A stretch of 64,000 nt of DNA, from contig WGBC01000026.1 in assembly GCA_015494535.1 (NCBI GenBank), positions 1-64,000 of the forward strand. Reading direction: 5' to 3'. Within the stretch, counting starts at the first letter, position 1; each line of letters begins with the position of its first letter. The notes beneath the pieces were generated by a model, which did not search any database, was not told where the DNA came from, and worked only from the letters and a program-made list of their open reading frames with translations. Below, one piece after another: positions 45,107 to 54,319 of the stretch. This DNA comes from Nitratiruptor sp. Lineage in GTDB: Bacteria > Campylobacterota > Campylobacteria > Campylobacterales > Nitratiruptoraceae. The translations under genes were made by a program, and so were the position numbers.

Positions 45107-45895
45107 TCAACCAGCCCTTACTATATACCATAGTCCCACGCCCAAGATGAGTGTTATAAAATTTAAAGCCATAAAGCGAAGTAGAAAAAGTGGCTCTTTA
45201 TATTTGGCAATATAAAACTTGTAGGCAATAATATTTGCAAGCGAACCCCACAAAATTCCATATCCTCCTACACTTACACCCCACAAAAGTGGTTGCCACT
45301 GCTGGGTAAAGTTGGCTACTACCACGCTAGCTGGCACATTGCTTATTAGCTGCGAAAGAATAAGAGAGAGCCAGAAAATATCGTGAATATGGGTAATATC
45401 TTTTTGGAAAAAAAAGCCAATATTATCGGCAATGCCAAAAAAAAGAAAAAAAGTGGCTAGTAAATAGTAGTCAATCTGCAAACTTTTTGGATCGCGAAAA
45501 AGTGCGTAGAAAAATACTACAAACGCCAAAAAGAGAGGTACCACTTTTACTACTGCAGAAACTACTAATAGAAAAAGAAATAGAAACTCTTTTGCTTTTC
45601 GTGTAGGAGGCTTTACAACAACTTCATTATCATTTACCACCTCAATGTGCAACATTGCAACTAAAAGAAGAGAAAACAGAAAAATAAAAAGCACAAAAGG
45701 AAAAATAGAAGCTACAAACTCTTGGAAAGTCAGATTGTATTGCCAAAAGATGTAGAGATTTTGCGGAGTGCTACTTGGCAAAAGGGCTGCACCGTTTGCT
45801 GCAATCGCTTCGATAATAATGAGATATGCTTTTTTGGGACTATTAAGCAAAAGAGTAATCGGCACTATTACAATGAGCGCCACATCATTTGTCAC
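45107..45895 (-). CDS. SLC13/ArsB-type anion transporter, C-terminal frame
   Basis: Begins GTG in frame (V)TNDVALIVIVPITLLL, conserved 'FVTNDVAL' motif; multiple TM helices; -1 relative to the upstream frame. Confidence 0.7.
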   Translation of the reverse strand: MTNDVALIVIVPITLLLNSPKKAYLIIIEAIAANGAALLPSSTPQNLYIFWQYNLTFQEFVASIFPFVLFIFLFSLLLVAMLHIEVVNDNEVVVKPPTRKAKEFLFLFLLVVSAVVKVVPLFLAFVVFFYALFRDPKSLQIDYYLLATFFLFFGIADNIGFFFQKDITHIHDIFWLSLILSQLISNVPASVVVANFTQQWQPLLWGVSVGGYGILWGSLANIIAYKFYIAKYKEPLFLLRFMALNFITLILGVGLWYIVRAG

Positions 45896-46161
45896 AAAAA
45901 AGAGATCAAAAATGTAACTATCACCAAAGCGTATGCTGGATAAATTCCTTGCTCGATTTTGATAGCAATGAAATGTAGCAAGCCTGAGTTCTCAAGCCCC
46001 TTAATTGCGATAAAAAGCGTAAAGAGAATAAAGAGCACCTCATACTCATCAGATGAATAGTGAGGAAAACGGTGCAAAAGCAACGATGAGGCTATCCACA
46101 ATACCAAAGAGAGCCAAAAGAGCCACTCTTTGGTAATGAAGCTTCTTATCTTATGGTTCAT
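45892..46161 (-). CDS. SLC13/ArsB-type anion transporter, N-terminal frame
   Basis: Three TM segments ending ...VIVTFLISFL* exactly where FFVTNDVA should follow. Confidence 0.65.
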   Translation of the reverse strand: MNHKIRSFITKEWLFWLSLVLWIASSLLLHRFPHYSSDEYEVLFILFTLFIAIKGLENSGLLHFIAIKIEQGIYPAYALVIVTFLISFL

Positions 46162-48721
46162 AATGTAAAATTACAGGCTCCGAGTAGTTTGGCACATCAT
46201 CATAGCTAAAGACGGCGTAGAATTTGGCTATTTTGGTATTGCCAAAGTTATCATAAGTATACTCATCTTTTCCGGCATAGAGTTTCACGCCATCGTACGG
46301 ATTGCGTGGCGGATGAAATCTGTTGCGCACCACATAGGCACCTACGAAATCTTTATCTTTTGGATTCTTCCAAGTTAACTTCACCATACCCTTTTCAACC
46401 GTAGCTTTTATATCGCTTACAGGTGCTACTGGCTTTTTTCGTCTTTTTATATATTTGACTACTAGTTTCACCTCATGCTCGCTCATCCTGTCGTACCAGT
46501 CTATGATATGATCCTTCGTGGCGGATGCCAAAGTTGGATGGATGATGAACGAAACTGGGCGATTTTGGGCGTGAAACTCTTCTAATGCGATCTTGCTAGC
46601 GGTATCGAACAAAAAGTAGTGCACGCTGCTTTTTTGCAGATCCTCCTCGCTCACCTCGTAGTCGATAAAGCCAAGAGATTTTCTTTTGTGGATATGATCG
46701 TAATCTATTTTTTCAAGATCCACAAACTCAATCAAGTAGCGGATATCCTCGCTGCTTTTTACGATCTTTTTGCTCTGAATCTTGATATAAGCTTCTGTGA
46801 TGACAGTTTTTTCAGGATCAGGTAAAAGGCCAAGATCAAACTCCATATACCCATACACTACTCTGCCCTCTTTGTCAAATCCGCAGCGAAGCCTATCTAC
46901 GACTATTCCCTCTTGCGAGATGGTTTTGAGCTGCAGTGGGGCGATTTCTGCTTCTACTGGAGGGATGGTATATTTGATGTCAAGATGTGGGCGATAGTGG
47001 ATCCCGCCACCAAATGGTCCATAGCCAAGATCAAACATCATCATCTGGCTGTCTGCTCCAAGAGGCAGCTTGGTTGGCCCTTGCATACGAAAAAGAACTT
47101 CTTGTTTTTTGAGGCACTCTTGCAAAAGCTTCCTCTCATACTCATTGAGCTCCCAAGTCTTCCAGATCCCTTGTGTGAGCTTTTCGGAAGGGATGGTCTG
47201 ACCAAGGGTCTGGATAACTTTTGCGTTGTGAATCTCCTCAAAACTACTAAGATTTTTTACATCCTCTATGAAGCTAATACTCCACTCTCCATACTTCTCA
47301 ATCTTGACGTTGACGCGATTGAGTGGATAGAGGCTGATGCGAGCCTCTTTGATGATAGCGTTAGGTGGGATGGAATTGAGTTTAAATTTCATCACCCCAT
47401 AGCTGATGCCTAGCGTCTTGTTCACTCCTACAAAAAGAGAATTCTTGCCAAAATGCTCCGCATTTTTTTGGGATTTTTGCGCCACGTAGCCAATCTCTTG
47501 TGGATTGGGGAAGATACTTCGAAAAAACTCATCTCTCTCTAGCTGCGTCATTACCTTTACTTGCGGTGCAAAAGGGCCTTTGAGTTTTGTTATGGAGTCT
47601 ACTGCACGAATATAGTAAAAATAGAGCTTGCCGCTCTTTCTATCTTTGTCGATATAGCTCAAATTGGCGGTTGTCGCTATGAGAGATGGCTCTTTGCAAG
47701 CCTCTTTGTGCTTTTCGTTGCGATAGATCTCAAAGTAGATATGTGGGCTTGGCTCATACTCCCAGGTAAGCTTGACGCAGTTACTGCCAACCTCTTCAAG
47801 AGTAAAATTCTCCACTCTTGCAGGTGTATTGGAGGAGTAGTTGCAGGCTTGATTAAGCGCATACAAAAGGGCTGGAATATTCTCATCGATCGATTCGCTC
47901 ATATTTTGCAAATAATCTGGTATGTTTCTCGTACCAACCTCCACTACGGTAGCTAAAATCCCTCTAGAGTAGTAATACTCCCTCCCACTGCCACTAATGA
48001 GCTTTGCAGGGGGTTTGCCCCTGTGAATCCCATAGCGCCTTCCTGTTACCTTTTCAATCTCAAAGTTCATATTGGCGCACAGCACATTGAGATCCGTTCC
48101 TTCAATCTCGGCTTCATGGTTGAATTTGTGTGCCGGGAAAAAAACATTACCTTGAGAATGATAATCAAGAGCTATGGTAATGTTTGGATGATTGTCTACA
48201 AACTCTTTGATAGCTCTAGTTTCTGGCTCACTAAATGGCTCAGGACCTCCATAGATGTTTGAGGTGTAGTTTTTGCTTTTTGTCCAGCCCACGCTAAAGT
48301 TTCTATTGAGATCCACTCCGTAGCTGCCATCTGGATTCTTGCGCCTATTTTTTCGCCAAAAGGAGTAGTGTGTCCTGCTATATTCAAATCCATCGGGGTT
48401 GAGCACTGGCACGATGTAGAGCGTATTCTTGGCCAAAGCGCTGATTACTCTCGGATCGCTTTTGTGGTGGGTCAAGAGATAGTCGATAAAAGCAACTGCC
48501 AATTCGTTGCCTATCCACTCTCTTGCGTGAATGGTGCCGGTATATAAAAGGGCAGGTTTGAGATCGGCAAACTCCACATCCAATGAAATCGTAGCCAAAA
48601 TGATATCCCTGTCTTCCCATGTCTTACCAATAGATTGGATCTTAATGAGATGGGGATACTCTTTGACCTTTTGTTTCAAAAATGCAACTGTCTCATCATA
48701 GGATTTATACTGATGTTTCAA
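46151..48721 (-). CDS. M14-family zinc carboxypeptidase with FN3/DNRLRE-like C-terminal modules
   Basis: LLYTGTIHAREWIGNELA (HxxE), YIVPVLNPDGFEYSR, RKNRRKNPDGSYGVDLNRNF, ITIALDYHSQGN, ATVVEVG; no obvious signal peptide (MKHQYKSYDETV). Confidence 0.92.
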   Translation of the reverse strand: MKHQYKSYDETVAFLKQKVKEYPHLIKIQSIGKTWEDRDIILATISLDVEFADLKPALLYTGTIHAREWIGNELAVAFIDYLLTHHKSDPRVISALAKNTLYIVPVLNPDGFEYSRTHYSFWRKNRRKNPDGSYGVDLNRNFSVGWTKSKNYTSNIYGGPEPFSEPETRAIKEFVDNHPNITIALDYHSQGNVFFPAHKFNHEAEIEGTDLNVLCANMNFEIEKVTGRRYGIHRGKPPAKLISGSGREYYYSRGILATVVEVGTRNIPDYLQNMSESIDENIPALLYALNQACNYSSNTPARVENFTLEEVGSNCVKLTWEYEPSPHIYFEIYRNEKHKEACKEPSLIATTANLSYIDKDRKSGKLYFYYIRAVDSITKLKGPFAPQVKVMTQLERDEFFRSIFPNPQEIGYVAQKSQKNAEHFGKNSLFVGVNKTLGISYGVMKFKLNSIPPNAIIKEARISLYPLNRVNVKIEKYGEWSISFIEDVKNLSSFEEIHNAKVIQTLGQTIPSEKLTQGIWKTWELNEYERKLLQECLKKQEVLFRMQGPTKLPLGADSQMMMFDLGYGPFGGGIHYRPHLDIKYTIPPVEAEIAPLQLKTISQEGIVVDRLRCGFDKEGRVVYGYMEFDLGLLPDPEKTVITEAYIKIQSKKIVKSSEDIRYLIEFVDLEKIDYDHIHKRKSLGFIDYEVSEEDLQKSSVHYFLFDTASKIALEEFHAQNRPVSFIIHPTLASATKDHIIDWYDRMSEHEVKLVVKYIKRRKKPVAPVSDIKATVEKGMVKLTWKNPKDKDFVGAYVVRNRFHPPRNPYDGVKLYAGKDEYTYDNFGNTKIAKFYAVFSYDDVPNYSEPVILHYEP

Positions 48722-50126
48722 ACTGCTCCTTTTTAAAGTTTTTCCAAGAATCTAGTAGTTTTTGTAATGTTTTTTCTTTAATGCCTTTGAGCTCAAGCAG
48801 GGCATCTGGATTGTTATCGAGTTCATAAGCAATATTAAACGCATCCATCTGATCCAAAATTTTAGTGGCTTTTTTCTTGCCAAGTCTTTTATGCAAGAAA
48901 GCGATCACATCTTCTTCCTTGACGCTCACTGGTTGCTCATCGCTTGGCTCTTCGAAAATATGCTCCTCATTGGAAACTTTCTCCTCCTTGGTTGGCTTTT
49001 CACTCCAAAAATTTTTGCACTTACTCGTAAAATCCCACTGCTCGCTTGGCCACTCTTCATACTCTCTATCCTCGGTATTGAGCATAGGATACTCTTCATC
49101 AAGCTGCCAAATTTTGTGCTGGGTGCCTTGCTCGTCGAATTTTACCCTATTTAAGAAATATTCTCCATCAAAACTTGGCGTATAGCGCCCAAATGTTATG
49201 TAGCGCATAGTACGCAGCAAACTGCTGTCGATCTTGCCAAGCTCCTCCCAGTTATACACTGGAATATTTGGCTTAGGAAATCTACCACCACTTAATTTCC
49301 ACATCAAATACTGCCCTATCCAATCCCTGATATAAGGAAAGGCAGCAAAAGCAGTAGCGCATTCTAAAATCCTATACTTGCCATCTTCCTTGCCTACAGC
49401 AATATCACACGCCCAATACTCGGCATTAGCGGCTTTACTCACTTTTACGGCCAAATCCAGCACCCCTTTTGGCACGTTCATATAGTCTATACTGCCACCC
49501 TGACTGGTGTTGGTTAGCCAGTGTCCTTCAGGAGGCCTTCGCCAAAAGGCGCATACTGGTTTGTGACCAATGAGCATCACACGAATATCGGCGCTCATCG
49601 GTACGAAATCTTGCACGTAGATTGGGCAGTACTTCTTCTCTTCCAAAAGCTTCTTGGCCTCCTCATAGCTATCCACCTTATGCACGTAGTAGCCTCCATA
49701 GTTGCTTGGCCCATAGCTTCTTTTGATAATTTTTGGATATGTGGTGGTGCGCAAAAACTCCATTCCCTCCTCTTTGTCATAAAAGATATAAGTTTTTGGC
49801 ACGGGAATATCATATTTCCAGCAAAATCTAGTCACATTCTCTTTGGATTTGTTGGCAAACTGCGCATCGAGCGAGGGTATGAAGCGTACGTTTGGCAGCT
49901 TCTTTGCAATCTTTCTAAACGTCTCGTAGGCGGTAGCTGGAATGTTGCCGATGAGTACATCGATCTTTTTCTTTTTTACCTCTTTGATAAATCTCTCCTC
50001 ATCACCCTTCCAGTGATAGACAACCGTCTCGATTTTGTCAGGCCAACCGCGAAAGTTGCTCCTATCGAAAAATCTCAATACATAATCTAAATACAAAAGT
50101 CCTATTTTTGGTAATTTTTTAGCCAT
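48705..50126 (-). CDS. RimK-like ATP-grasp ligase with C-terminal HhH-like tail
   Basis: YPKIIKRSYGPSNYGGYYVHKVDS...CPIYVQDFVPMSADIRVMLIG...EYWACDIAVGKEDGKYRILECATAFAAFPYI; tail LELKGIKEKTLQKLLDSW. Confidence 0.82.
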   Translation of the reverse strand: MAKKLPKIGLLYLDYVLRFFDRSNFRGWPDKIETVVYHWKGDEERFIKEVKKKKIDVLIGNIPATAYETFRKIAKKLPNVRFIPSLDAQFANKSKENVTRFCWKYDIPVPKTYIFYDKEEGMEFLRTTTYPKIIKRSYGPSNYGGYYVHKVDSYEEAKKLLEEKKYCPIYVQDFVPMSADIRVMLIGHKPVCAFWRRPPEGHWLTNTSQGGSIDYMNVPKGVLDLAVKVSKAANAEYWACDIAVGKEDGKYRILECATAFAAFPYIRDWIGQYLMWKLSGGRFPKPNIPVYNWEELGKIDSSLLRTMRYITFGRYTPSFDGEYFLNRVKFDEQGTQHKIWQLDEEYPMLNTEDREYEEWPSEQWDFTSKCKNFWSEKPTKEEKVSNEEHIFEEPSDEQPVSVKEEDVIAFLHKRLGKKKATKILDQMDAFNIAYELDNNPDALLELKGIKEKTLQKLLDSWKNFKKEQFETSV

Positions 50127-51018
50127 TTTTGATCCTTTTTTGTATAAGTTCTACAATTTTTTCTATTTTTTTGTCATTGAAATTAAGTCCCATCTTCTCT
50201 TGCTCAGGCGTTGCAAACGCTGGAATACCATTGACTTCCAAGACAATATACTCTTCATGCTCCCTATCATAAATGATATCCACTCCTGCAATCTCTATAT
50301 CAATTGCCTTAGCAGCCCTTTTAGCAAGTTCAATCACTTCATCCTCACACTCTCGTAAAATCACGCTGCCACCACTAGTCACATTGGTTCTCCAATCACC
50401 ATCCTTTGCTTTTCTGCCATAACATGCAATAAATTCGCCATCCACGATGTCCACTCTATAATCGCTCCCATCGTAATCTATGAACTTTTCGATATAGAAA
50501 AAGCGCAGATCCGTTTGGTTGAGAAACGGCAAGATCATATCGAGCTTATCCTTGCTATCCACCAGCGCCATACCCATGCCACCCCAACCATCGACCGTCT
50601 TAAATACCGCTTTGCCCCACTCCAAGACTTTATTGCGAATCGTCTCCACATCCTCTCTGTGGCACAAAAAATAGTCAGCTGTCTTGATGCCGGCATTTCT
50701 TAGTACGTCGTTGGTTTTGAATTTGTCTTCGCTGATGTTGAAGGCTCTAAAATTGTTGATGCATGGCACATGCCTATCAAGTGCTTCATAAAGATAGACT
50801 TGATATTTGGTTTGCTCGCCCGCATTGTAACTAAAAAAGCAATCAAGCTCATACATGTTTATGCCATTTAAGAGCAGCTTCCCGCTCTCAGCCACCGCAT
50901 GGCGAAGATTGAGGCCAGTCGAGACAATATGACCATACTCTTGCAGCCTATCGACTATCTTTTTTTGGATGATATCCCCACCCCCATTTTGATACATCCA
51001 GATGCCTATATGCGCCAT
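50119..51018 (-). CDS. RimK-like ATP-grasp ligase
   Basis: VLEWGKAVFKTVDGWGGMGMALV...FFYIEKFIDYDGSDYRVDIVDGEFIACYGRKAKDGDWRTNVTSGGSV...AGVDIIYDREHEEYIVLEVNGIPAF. Confidence 0.88.
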   Translation of the reverse strand: MAHIGIWMYQNGGGDIIQKKIVDRLQEYGHIVSTGLNLRHAVAESGKLLLNGINMYELDCFFSYNAGEQTKYQVYLYEALDRHVPCINNFRAFNISEDKFKTNDVLRNAGIKTADYFLCHREDVETIRNKVLEWGKAVFKTVDGWGGMGMALVDSKDKLDMILPFLNQTDLRFFYIEKFIDYDGSDYRVDIVDGEFIACYGRKAKDGDWRTNVTSGGSVILRECEDEVIELAKRAAKAIDIEIAGVDIIYDREHEEYIVLEVNGIPAFATPEQEKMGLNFNDKKIEKIVELIQKRIKNG

Positions 51019-51069
51019 TAGGAGTCCTTTAAGATGTTTTAATCTATAATACAAAAAAGTTGATTAAGG

Positions 51070-52164
51070 ATGAGTAAAATGGGATACGATTTTAGTGAGT
51101 TGGCAGAAATTATCAATATCAATTCCTACACCAAAAATAAAGCTGGCGTGGACGAAAATGGAAAGATATTTCGAGAAAAATTTGAAGCGCTGGGGTTTAC
51201 AACCACCATTTTTGAAAGAGAAGAGTTTGGCAATCATTTATGGTTCAAATCCAAACATAAAGATGGCAAGAAGATGCTGCTTCTTGGGCATATTGATACC
51301 GTTTTCCCTCCCGGCAGCTTCGAAGATTTCAGTGAAGATGAGGAGTGGATATACGGGCCCGGAGTGTGCGATATGAAAGGCGGGATATTTGTAATGTTGG
51401 AGGCTCTTAGAGCTCAAGAAAAAATATATAACATCGATGTCTTTTTAGTAACTGATGAAGAGATTGGCAGCGACGACTCAAGAGAGCTTACCTACTCATT
51501 GGCTAGAGAGTATGAGTATTGTCTAGTATTCGAAGCGGCAGGTAGAAATGACGAGATAGTGACGGCGAGAAAAGGTATCGGCACCTTTACAATCGAAATC
51601 AAGGGCAAAGCCGCTCATGCAGGCAACTGCTACACACAAGGCGTAGATGCCAATAAAGAGGCGGCCCATAAGCTTTTGGCACTCTCGCACCTTACAGACT
51701 TGGCTGCTGGGACGACTCTGAATGTTGGCAAAATAGAGGGCGGTATTGGTGCAAATACCATTAGCCCAGAGGCAAAACTCCTCTTTGAAGCCCGTTTCAC
51801 CACCACAAAAGAGCGCGATAGGGTCTTGCAAGAGATTACAGAGATCACCAATACATCCTTCGTGGATGGCAGCAGTGCGACGCTTGGAGGAGGTCTGCAA
51901 AGAGACGTGATGGAAGAAAACCAAAAGCAGCTGCAATTTATCAAAGAATTAGAAAAGTGGAGCGGTAGCAAACTTCTTACAGAGAGACGTGGAGGTGGGA
52001 GCGACGCGAATATTGCGGCAAGTGCCGGCGCAATTACGCTCGATGGCTTTGGACCCTTTGGGGATGGGGATCATACCATACATGAGAGGGCTAGCAAAAA
52101 GAGCTATCTTAATAGAATTGAGCTGGTAAGCAAAATTTTTAGAGGATTTATGGCAAATATTTAG
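51070..52164 (+). CDS. M20-family metallopeptidase (carboxypeptidase G2/ArgE-like)
   Basis: MLLLGHIDTVFPPG, GPGVCDMKGGIFVMLEAL, VTDEEIGSDDSR, KGKAAHAGNCYTQGVDANKEAAHKL. Confidence 0.92.
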   Translation: MSKMGYDFSELAEIININSYTKNKAGVDENGKIFREKFEALGFTTTIFEREEFGNHLWFKSKHKDGKKMLLLGHIDTVFPPGSFEDFSEDEEWIYGPGVCDMKGGIFVMLEALRAQEKIYNIDVFLVTDEEIGSDDSRELTYSLAREYEYCLVFEAAGRNDEIVTARKGIGTFTIEIKGKAAHAGNCYTQGVDANKEAAHKLLALSHLTDLAAGTTLNVGKIEGGIGANTISPEAKLLFEARFTTTKERDRVLQEITEITNTSFVDGSSATLGGGLQRDVMEENQKQLQFIKELEKWSGSKLLTERRGGGSDANIAASAGAITLDGFGPFGDGDHTIHERASKKSYLNRIELVSKIFRGFMANI

Positions 52165-53500: not shown

Positions 53501-54319
53501 CTATATACCACTTTTTTTGCTTAAGCAAAAGGCGATTCCTTTTTCGTAATAGGCAGCCTCATTGATAAATACCCCATAACATGCATCCCTATCAAAAAAA
53601 TACTCCTTCTCATCAAATCCCAAAAATATCGGATCGCCTTTATGCAATAGTTGATAATCCCTACCAGCAAACTCTGGATGGATCATGGCTGCAATCTCGC
53701 CATCTTTTCTTGGAAAATCGATTGTATCAAATATATCATAGCACTCTACCTCTTCATCCATACTCTCCTCTTTTTGCAAAATATCAAGAGCTCTGTGCAC
53801 CACTTTTAAAGTTTTAAAAAAAAGTTCACTATCCAAAACCCCTTGGCATATTGGGCCAACTTCAATAGTGATGGAGGCTGGCACAATGGAGTTGATAAAT
53901 GCCCCCTCATCGGTGGAAAACCAGCGCAAAATCCTCACTTCCTCAAATTCGCTAGCTAAAATCTTGGCCACGTTTTCACTGAGCTTCTCTTGAGAGCTGA
54001 GCACGATGGTGATGCCCATATTTGCGGTCGTGGTATGCAAATCTATCAAAAAGTCGCAATCTCTCAAACGATCCTTTATCACTTTTGCCCTCTCAAACTC
54101 ATAAATATGGCTGTCTTGCATAAGCTTGGCTTTATCAAATGATCTGTTAAGATCGTAGTCTATATATCTTCTGCACTCCTTGATAGCTTTTGGATTTGCC
54201 AAAAGGAGATCTAGTTGCAATTCTTTGGGGCTCAATCCATCACTTTGCAGCTTTTTGACTAGATACACTCCCAAAAGCTCATTGCCATGCACGCCGCCAC
54301 TAATTGTTACACGCATCAT
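53501..54319 (-). CDS. Aspartoacylase/succinylglutamate desuccinylase-family (AstE/AspA-like) zinc hydrolase
   Basis: VTISGGVHGNELLGVYLVKKL (HGNE), LANPKAIKECRRYIDYDLNRSF, DFLIDLHTTTANMG. Confidence 0.88.
   Translation of the reverse strand: MMRVTISGGVHGNELLGVYLVKKLQSDGLSPKELQLDLLLANPKAIKECRRYIDYDLNRSFDKAKLMQDSHIYEFERAKVIKDRLRDCDFLIDLHTTTANMGITIVLSSQEKLSENVAKILASEFEEVRILRWFSTDEGAFINSIVPASITIEVGPICQGVLDSELFFKTLKVVHRALDILQKEESMDEEVECYDIFDTIDFPRKDGEIAAMIHPEFAGRDYQLLHKGDPIFLGFDEKEYFFDRDACYGVFINEAAYYEKGIAFCLSKKSGI

Follow-up and report, generated by a model that had tools for sequence, protein, structure and literature searches.

The window analyzed here is a stretch of 64,000 nucleotides from Nitratiruptor sp. 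(contig WGBC01000026.1, positions 1 to 64,000), drawn from a 1.4 Mb, 79%-complete genome. Between positions 46,151 and 52,164 it carries four tightly packed genes for two RimK-fold ATP-grasp proteins, labeled AG1 and AG2, and two peptidases, labeled M14 and M20. AG2 is 93% identical to that of a Nitratiruptor metagenome-assembled genome, its closest named relative. The features of the locus are as follows:

46151-48721, minus strand: M14, carboxypeptidase of 856 aa, with a TTG start preceded by an AAGGAG site
48705-50126, minus strand: AG2, LysX-like ATP-grasp protein of 473 aa, with a predicted C-terminal helix-hairpin-helix tail
50119-51018, minus strand: AG1, RimK-fold ATP-grasp ligase of 299 aa, with an ATG start and an intact ExN metal motif
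51054, minus strand: alternative upstream TTG start for AG1, from the list of open reading frames (ORFs)
51019-51069, no strand: divergent intergenic region of 51 bp between AG1 and M20, from the ORF coordinates
51070-52164, plus strand: M20, metallopeptidase of 364 aa, whose nearest solved relative is carboxypeptidase G2

AG1 and AG2 overlap by 8 nt (50119-50126), and AG2 and M14 by 17 nt (48705-48721). The ORF coordinates reproduce the gene positions, both overlaps and the 51-bp spacing to the divergent M20 gene that were given in an initial annotation of this DNA, and Pfam returned the families it had named: RimK twice (5.9e-24 for AG1 and 2.1e-13 for AG2), Peptidase_M14 (7.4e-56), and M20 with M20_dimer. 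AG1 and AG2 are distinct proteins, with 27% identity over part of the ATP-grasp core.

The initial annotation proposed that the four genes form one module, and this was assessed by a neighborhood comparison and a genome survey. Searching GTDB contigs with AG2 yielded 80 loci, in which gene positions were assigned by tblastn and all neighboring genes were clustered. The order M20, AG1, AG2, M14 is kept in most of the 80 loci that were long enough to judge, with M20 either divergent or, in some lineages, co-directional. The AG1/AG2 group is present in all 80 loci, M14 in 68, and M20 in 63, and no other gene family from the clustering occurs in more than 12; the module therefore has a sharp boundary within changing surroundings. 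Among 397 Campylobacterota genomes, AG2 was found in 52 and M14 in 54, and all 52 AG2 genomes are among the 54 (hypergeometric p ~3e-63, kinship ignored). AG1 was detected in 51 of 53 retested M14-positive genomes and in none of 27 negatives, with identical counts for M20 (51/53 and 0/27). The same pattern repeats in 25 of 68 genera, counted with no correction for phylogeny. The set also persists when its members are unlinked. In one genome (G037), AG2 lies ~840 kb away from AG1, M14, and M20, and congeneric genomes look alike; eight AG2 loci that lack an adjacent M14 all belong to genomes with M14 elsewhere. Adjacency alone is therefore an insufficient explanation. These data demonstrate that M20, AG1, AG2, and M14 are a sharply bounded functional module, co-inherited almost all-or-none across genomes far beyond chance, and the earlier claim of a single module holds even where the genes are scattered.

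Incomplete sets are rare. One genome has M14 alone (G286, L206), another has AG1, M14, and M20 without AG2 (G407, L205), and a third has AG2 and M14 without AG1 and M20 (G249, L204). At one further locus (L013, G020), in-frame stops near the tail of the AG2 match suggest a frameshifted copy.

Outside the Campylobacterota, the M20-AG1-AG2-M14 order is also present in Pseudoalteromonas and Veronia. In the family to which Veronia belongs, the Vibrionaceae, 28 of 198 genomes carry the module, and the four genes are visible in order in all 14 regions that were read, with broken frames in three. A wider gammaproteobacterial sample gave a single hit among 369 genomes, which was the center genome itself. 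A tree built from the AG2 core groups the gammaproteobacterial sequences together, separate from those of Campylobacterota. Plasmid carriage was seen once, on a Photobacterium megaplasmid. A phage or virus origin was rejected because no relative was found in phage records or IMG/VR viral contigs. The carriers are scattered marine and sulfidic-water bacteria, namely environmental Campylobacterota, Vibrionaceae, and Pseudoalteromonas. Two Vibrionaceae genomes with two copies (G423 and G808) have M14 and/or AG2 split into several frames (L169, L170, and L173), and these duplicated modules seem to be decaying.

The solved relatives of AG1 are RimK and ArgX. Its best NCBIfam models are MptN (129 bits, cut-off 350) and rimK_fam (127 bits, cut-off 143), neither of which was reached, and it scores 61 bits against the RimK equivalog for the ribosomal S6 glutamate ligase (cut-off 331, not reached) and 60 bits against CofF (cut-off 300). 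Residues K140, D247, E261, and N263 are invariant in 34/34 homologs and align with their counterparts in RimK and ArgX. Judged by sequence, the metal site formed by D247, E261, and N263 is of the intact RimK type, and AG1 is placed nearest to the glutamate ligases RimK, ArgX, and MptN.

AG2 shows the strongest conservation in the module, ~190 of its 473 positions being nearly invariant. It scores 76 bits against the LysX model (cut-off 275.6, not reached). The solved structures that come closest to its AlphaFold model (mean predicted local distance difference test score [pLDDT] 72.9) are those of LysX and ArgX, a subset of which contain bound LysW or its product. Residues involved in ATP binding and the substrate loop are invariant (K135, D180, R182, R196, R197, N206, D241, and E255). 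After a variable linker, the protein ends in a helical tail (approximately residues 403-470) that is modeled with high confidence. In the window, this tail has a weak match to HHH_5 at residues 415-462 (4e-4, below gathering), and it is similarly HHH_5-like in most relatives. In a sister clade of Campylobacterota (L123-L136), the tail is instead of the ComEA-like tandem HHH_3 type, which scores above gathering in four members (1e-18 to 1e-27), and the catalytic core stays alike across this change of tail type. These matches identify the tail as a predicted helix-hairpin-helix (HhH) domain. One Vibrionaceae carrier (L167, G803) has a long-branched AG2 without the HhH tail; its AG1, M14, and M20 are present.

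In M14, eight residues that include the zinc and catalytic positions are invariant in 39/39 homologs (H65, E68, H188, R123, N139, R140, R247, and E261). In an alignment to CPA4, R247 corresponds to CPA position 255, and it is arginine in all 39. In carboxypeptidase O, Arg255 makes the enzyme specific for acidic C-terminal residues (PMC9925722), and M14 looks to carry this acidic-type specificity residue and the features of an acidic-specific M14 carboxypeptidase. By its AlphaFold model (mean pLDDT 82.3), M14 resembles carboxypeptidases of the A/B type, and the matches listed by sequence and by fold are of the CPA, CPB, CPT, CPO, and CPN/M/D kinds, not of the cytosolic carboxypeptidase (CCP) type. 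The peptidase domain is followed by a DNRLRE-like beta domain in 39/39 homologs and by fn3 in 27/39. Domains of the fn3 and DNRLRE-like kinds are usually extracellular; a signal-peptide screen of the M14 homologs found no hydrophobic N terminus in any member.

The nearest solved relative of M20 is carboxypeptidase G2 (CPG2; 1.3e-29). All zinc ligands are kept, with H74, D101, E130, E131, E155, and H335 invariant in 33/33 homologs. M20 scores 194 bits against the NCBIfam glutamate carboxypeptidase NF004788 (cut-off 349, not reached) and 51 bits against the LysW-lysine hydrolase model (cut-off 363). Signal-peptide-like stretches are absent across the four families, except for 1 of 34 AG1 sequences above threshold, and all four proteins look cytoplasmic. 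All four stay below the cut-offs of the curated NCBIfam models for ligases and peptidases. For the two ATP-grasp proteins, this speaks against either being the ortholog of a known enzyme, a possibility that the initial annotation had raised.

We propose that the module operates a cytoplasmic reversible ligation cycle for acidic residues, most likely glutamate, and give this reading a probability of about 0.4. Acidic residues are the likely currency because M14 has the Arg255-type residue, M20 is near CPG2, and AG1 is near glutamate ligases. AG1, as a RimK/ArgX-type enzyme, would link glutamate (or aspartate) to a target carboxylate in an ATP-dependent, amide-forming reaction. AG2, as an ATP-binding LysX-like protein with an HhH tail, would select or prime the target as an initiator or targeting subunit, and it may itself be a poor or non-catalytic ligase. 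M14 would then shorten the chain from its acidic C-terminal end, and the CPG2-like M20 would hydrolyze either the final amide or the dipeptide that is set free. The target could be a small molecule or a protein; the HhH tail hints that such a protein might be bound to nucleic acid. Glutamates are added to RpsF by RimK and removed by RimB (PMC11957791), and in tubulin the writers are ATP-grasp TTLL enzymes and the erasers are CCPs (PMC13137484). By analogy with tubulin, where chain initiation and chain elongation fall to different ligases, a similar division may be the reason for two ligases. That the residue is glutamate, that the polarity is one of writing and erasing, and that the four proteins share the work in this way are inferences.

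Several observations weigh against this proposal. In M14, the Tyr248 equivalent is missing and the aligned K240 is variable; the Arg255 match was assigned by sequence alignment, and model confidence is low near the active site, with pLDDT ~50-60 in several blocks. In M20, the position of CPG2 Arg324, a substrate-contacting residue, is not conserved. In AG2, the sequence E255-C256-A257 is invariant in 48/48 homologs where E-x-N is usual, so that the usual metal-binding Asn is missing and AG2 is perhaps not a ligase of the ordinary kind. Glutamate itself was assigned from family resemblance. Ribosomal S6 was considered as a target; among 16 carriers and 14 non-carriers, its C termini do not distinguish the two groups, and the tail is identical in a carrier (G011) and a non-carrier (G001).

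The data are explained almost as well by a small-molecule pathway that yields an acidic peptide or a glutamylated cofactor. Here, the ligases would build an acidic di- or tripeptide, or would glutamylate a cofactor tail in the style of MptN and CofF, and the peptidases would trim or recycle it, the product being an osmolyte, storage compound, carrier, or cofactor. This is a possible but tentative explanation. Among curated models, AG1 comes closest to MptN, which attaches glutamate to a cofactor; CPG2, the enzyme that M20 resembles, has a small glutamylated molecule as its substrate; the cytoplasmic appearance of all four proteins would suit it, and the module encodes no protein target or precursor alongside. 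However, the extreme conservation of AG2 and its HhH tail would be unusual for small-molecule ligases, and no biosynthetic partner or transporter is conserved in the 80 loci. The initial annotation had offered a writer/eraser or a biosynthetic module; its single module stands, and between its two functions our preference goes provisionally to the writer/eraser cycle.

The E-C-A motif of AG2 is also consistent with a different role, in which AG2 is a non-catalytic, synapsin-like ATP sensor or scaffold, AG1 is the sole ligase, and the HhH tail serves as an anchor that holds the complex on nucleic acid or on a partner protein. Synapsin, an ATP-grasp protein, is among the AG2 sequence matches listed; it binds ATP and is not known to act as a ligase. 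Retention of the HhH tail through the change in tail type would also fit a tether. We consider a scaffold role unlikely, however, as the other ATP-binding and substrate-loop residues of AG2 are all invariant, HhH domains can have other roles, and one carrier (L167) has lost the tail.

In the LysW pathway, M20-family enzymes release LysW-bound products, and the LysX and ArgX folds nearest to AG2 include LysW-bound structures. AG1 and AG2 might accordingly load the C-terminal Glu of a LysW/ArgW-type carrier, from which M20 and M14 would release the product. This is improbable because no LysW homolog was found in the genomes searched (0/60 relatives plus the window genome; control proteins were detected in 4), no conserved small ORF lies near the module, M20 is far from the LysW-lysine hydrolase cut-off, and the module lacks modifying enzymes. 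The small-ORF search covered 109 loci, and no candidate precursor or carrier family reached more than 7 of them; the families that did occur were local to related genomes. This agrees with the earlier remark that the locus has no precursor peptide or biosynthetic partner, and a graspetide or other ribosomally synthesized and post-translationally modified peptide (RiPP) cluster was rejected because no precursor peptide is conserved beside the module. A known anti-phage defense system was rejected as well, as none of the four proteins matched any PADLOC-DB family. That unrelated metabolic genes merely travel together could account for the patchy distribution (AG2 in 52/397 Campylobacterota genomes) but is contradicted by near-perfect co-occurrence even when the genes are scattered, and is highly improbable.

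Within the reversible ligation cycle, we also considered a more specific "glutamyl code," a horizontally spread four-enzyme system that would reversibly tag nucleic-acid-associated proteins with acidic residues. The HhH-tethered ATP-grasp subunit would locate the target and the two peptidases would erase the tag, as an independently evolved bacterial parallel of the TTLL/CCP machinery. We regard this version as quite unlikely.

Our best reading is that the module is analogous to RimK/RimB and TTLL/CCP but belongs to neither. RimABK of Pseudomonas and E. coli likewise combines a RimK-fold ligase with a glutamate-removing protease in the cytoplasm; it has one ligase and the retropepsin RimB as eraser, whereas the module has two ligases with M14 and M20 metallopeptidases. 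No RimB-type retropepsin partner is in the module and no further family is conserved around it, AG1 falls below the RimK equivalog cut-off, and S6 tails show no link to carriage. The TTLL/CCP enzymes of tubulin are likewise ATP-grasp writers and an M14 eraser, several acting as one set, but the module is bacterial and without tubulin, its ligases are RimK/LysX-like, and its M14 groups with A/B-type enzymes in both sequence and fold and has DNRLRE/fn3 domains. The LysX/ArgX-LysW pathway shares the nearest folds of AG2 and the pairing of ligases with an M20 hydrolase; the module differs in lacking LysW and biosynthetic enzymes, in the loss of ExN from AG2, and in the addition of M14. MptN and CofF are among the best curated models for AG1, far below their cut-offs, and the module has no methanopterin or F420 genes. 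CPG2 shares its zinc ligands with M20, which differs in its score below the glutamate carboxypeptidase cut-off and at the Arg324 position.

Two neighboring genes lie outside the module. A CitMHS-type transporter gene (45107-46161, minus strand) is immediately downstream of M14 with an 11-nt overlap, and a frameshift near 45893 splits its frame. The gene behind the module is intact as one open frame at two other loci (L034 and L037), and the split frame in the window is either real decay or an assembly error. This frameshifted gene, the HhH tail of AG2, and the DNRLRE/fn3 region of M14 go beyond what the initial annotation had recorded. An aspartoacylase gene (53501-54313, minus strand; above the PRK02259 cut-off) lies ~1.3 kb past M20, behind HtpX, and was placed outside the module because it adjoins it only in L038.

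We found no paper describing an ATP-grasp/M14/M20 cluster in the open subset of the literature; a 2009 amidoligase survey by Iyer and colleagues would be the likeliest place for an earlier mention. As far as checked, the four-gene ligation-and-trimming module is real and undescribed, with known enzyme folds newly combined. Only a handful of targets are known to be reversibly tagged with amino acids by ATP-grasp ligases, and the module is a strictly co-inherited set of two ATP-grasp proteins and two opposing peptidases, the members of which have no curated name. With some carriers able to grow in culture and close relatives that lack the module available within the same genus, comparison with a knockout could uncover a new protein modification or peptide metabolite.

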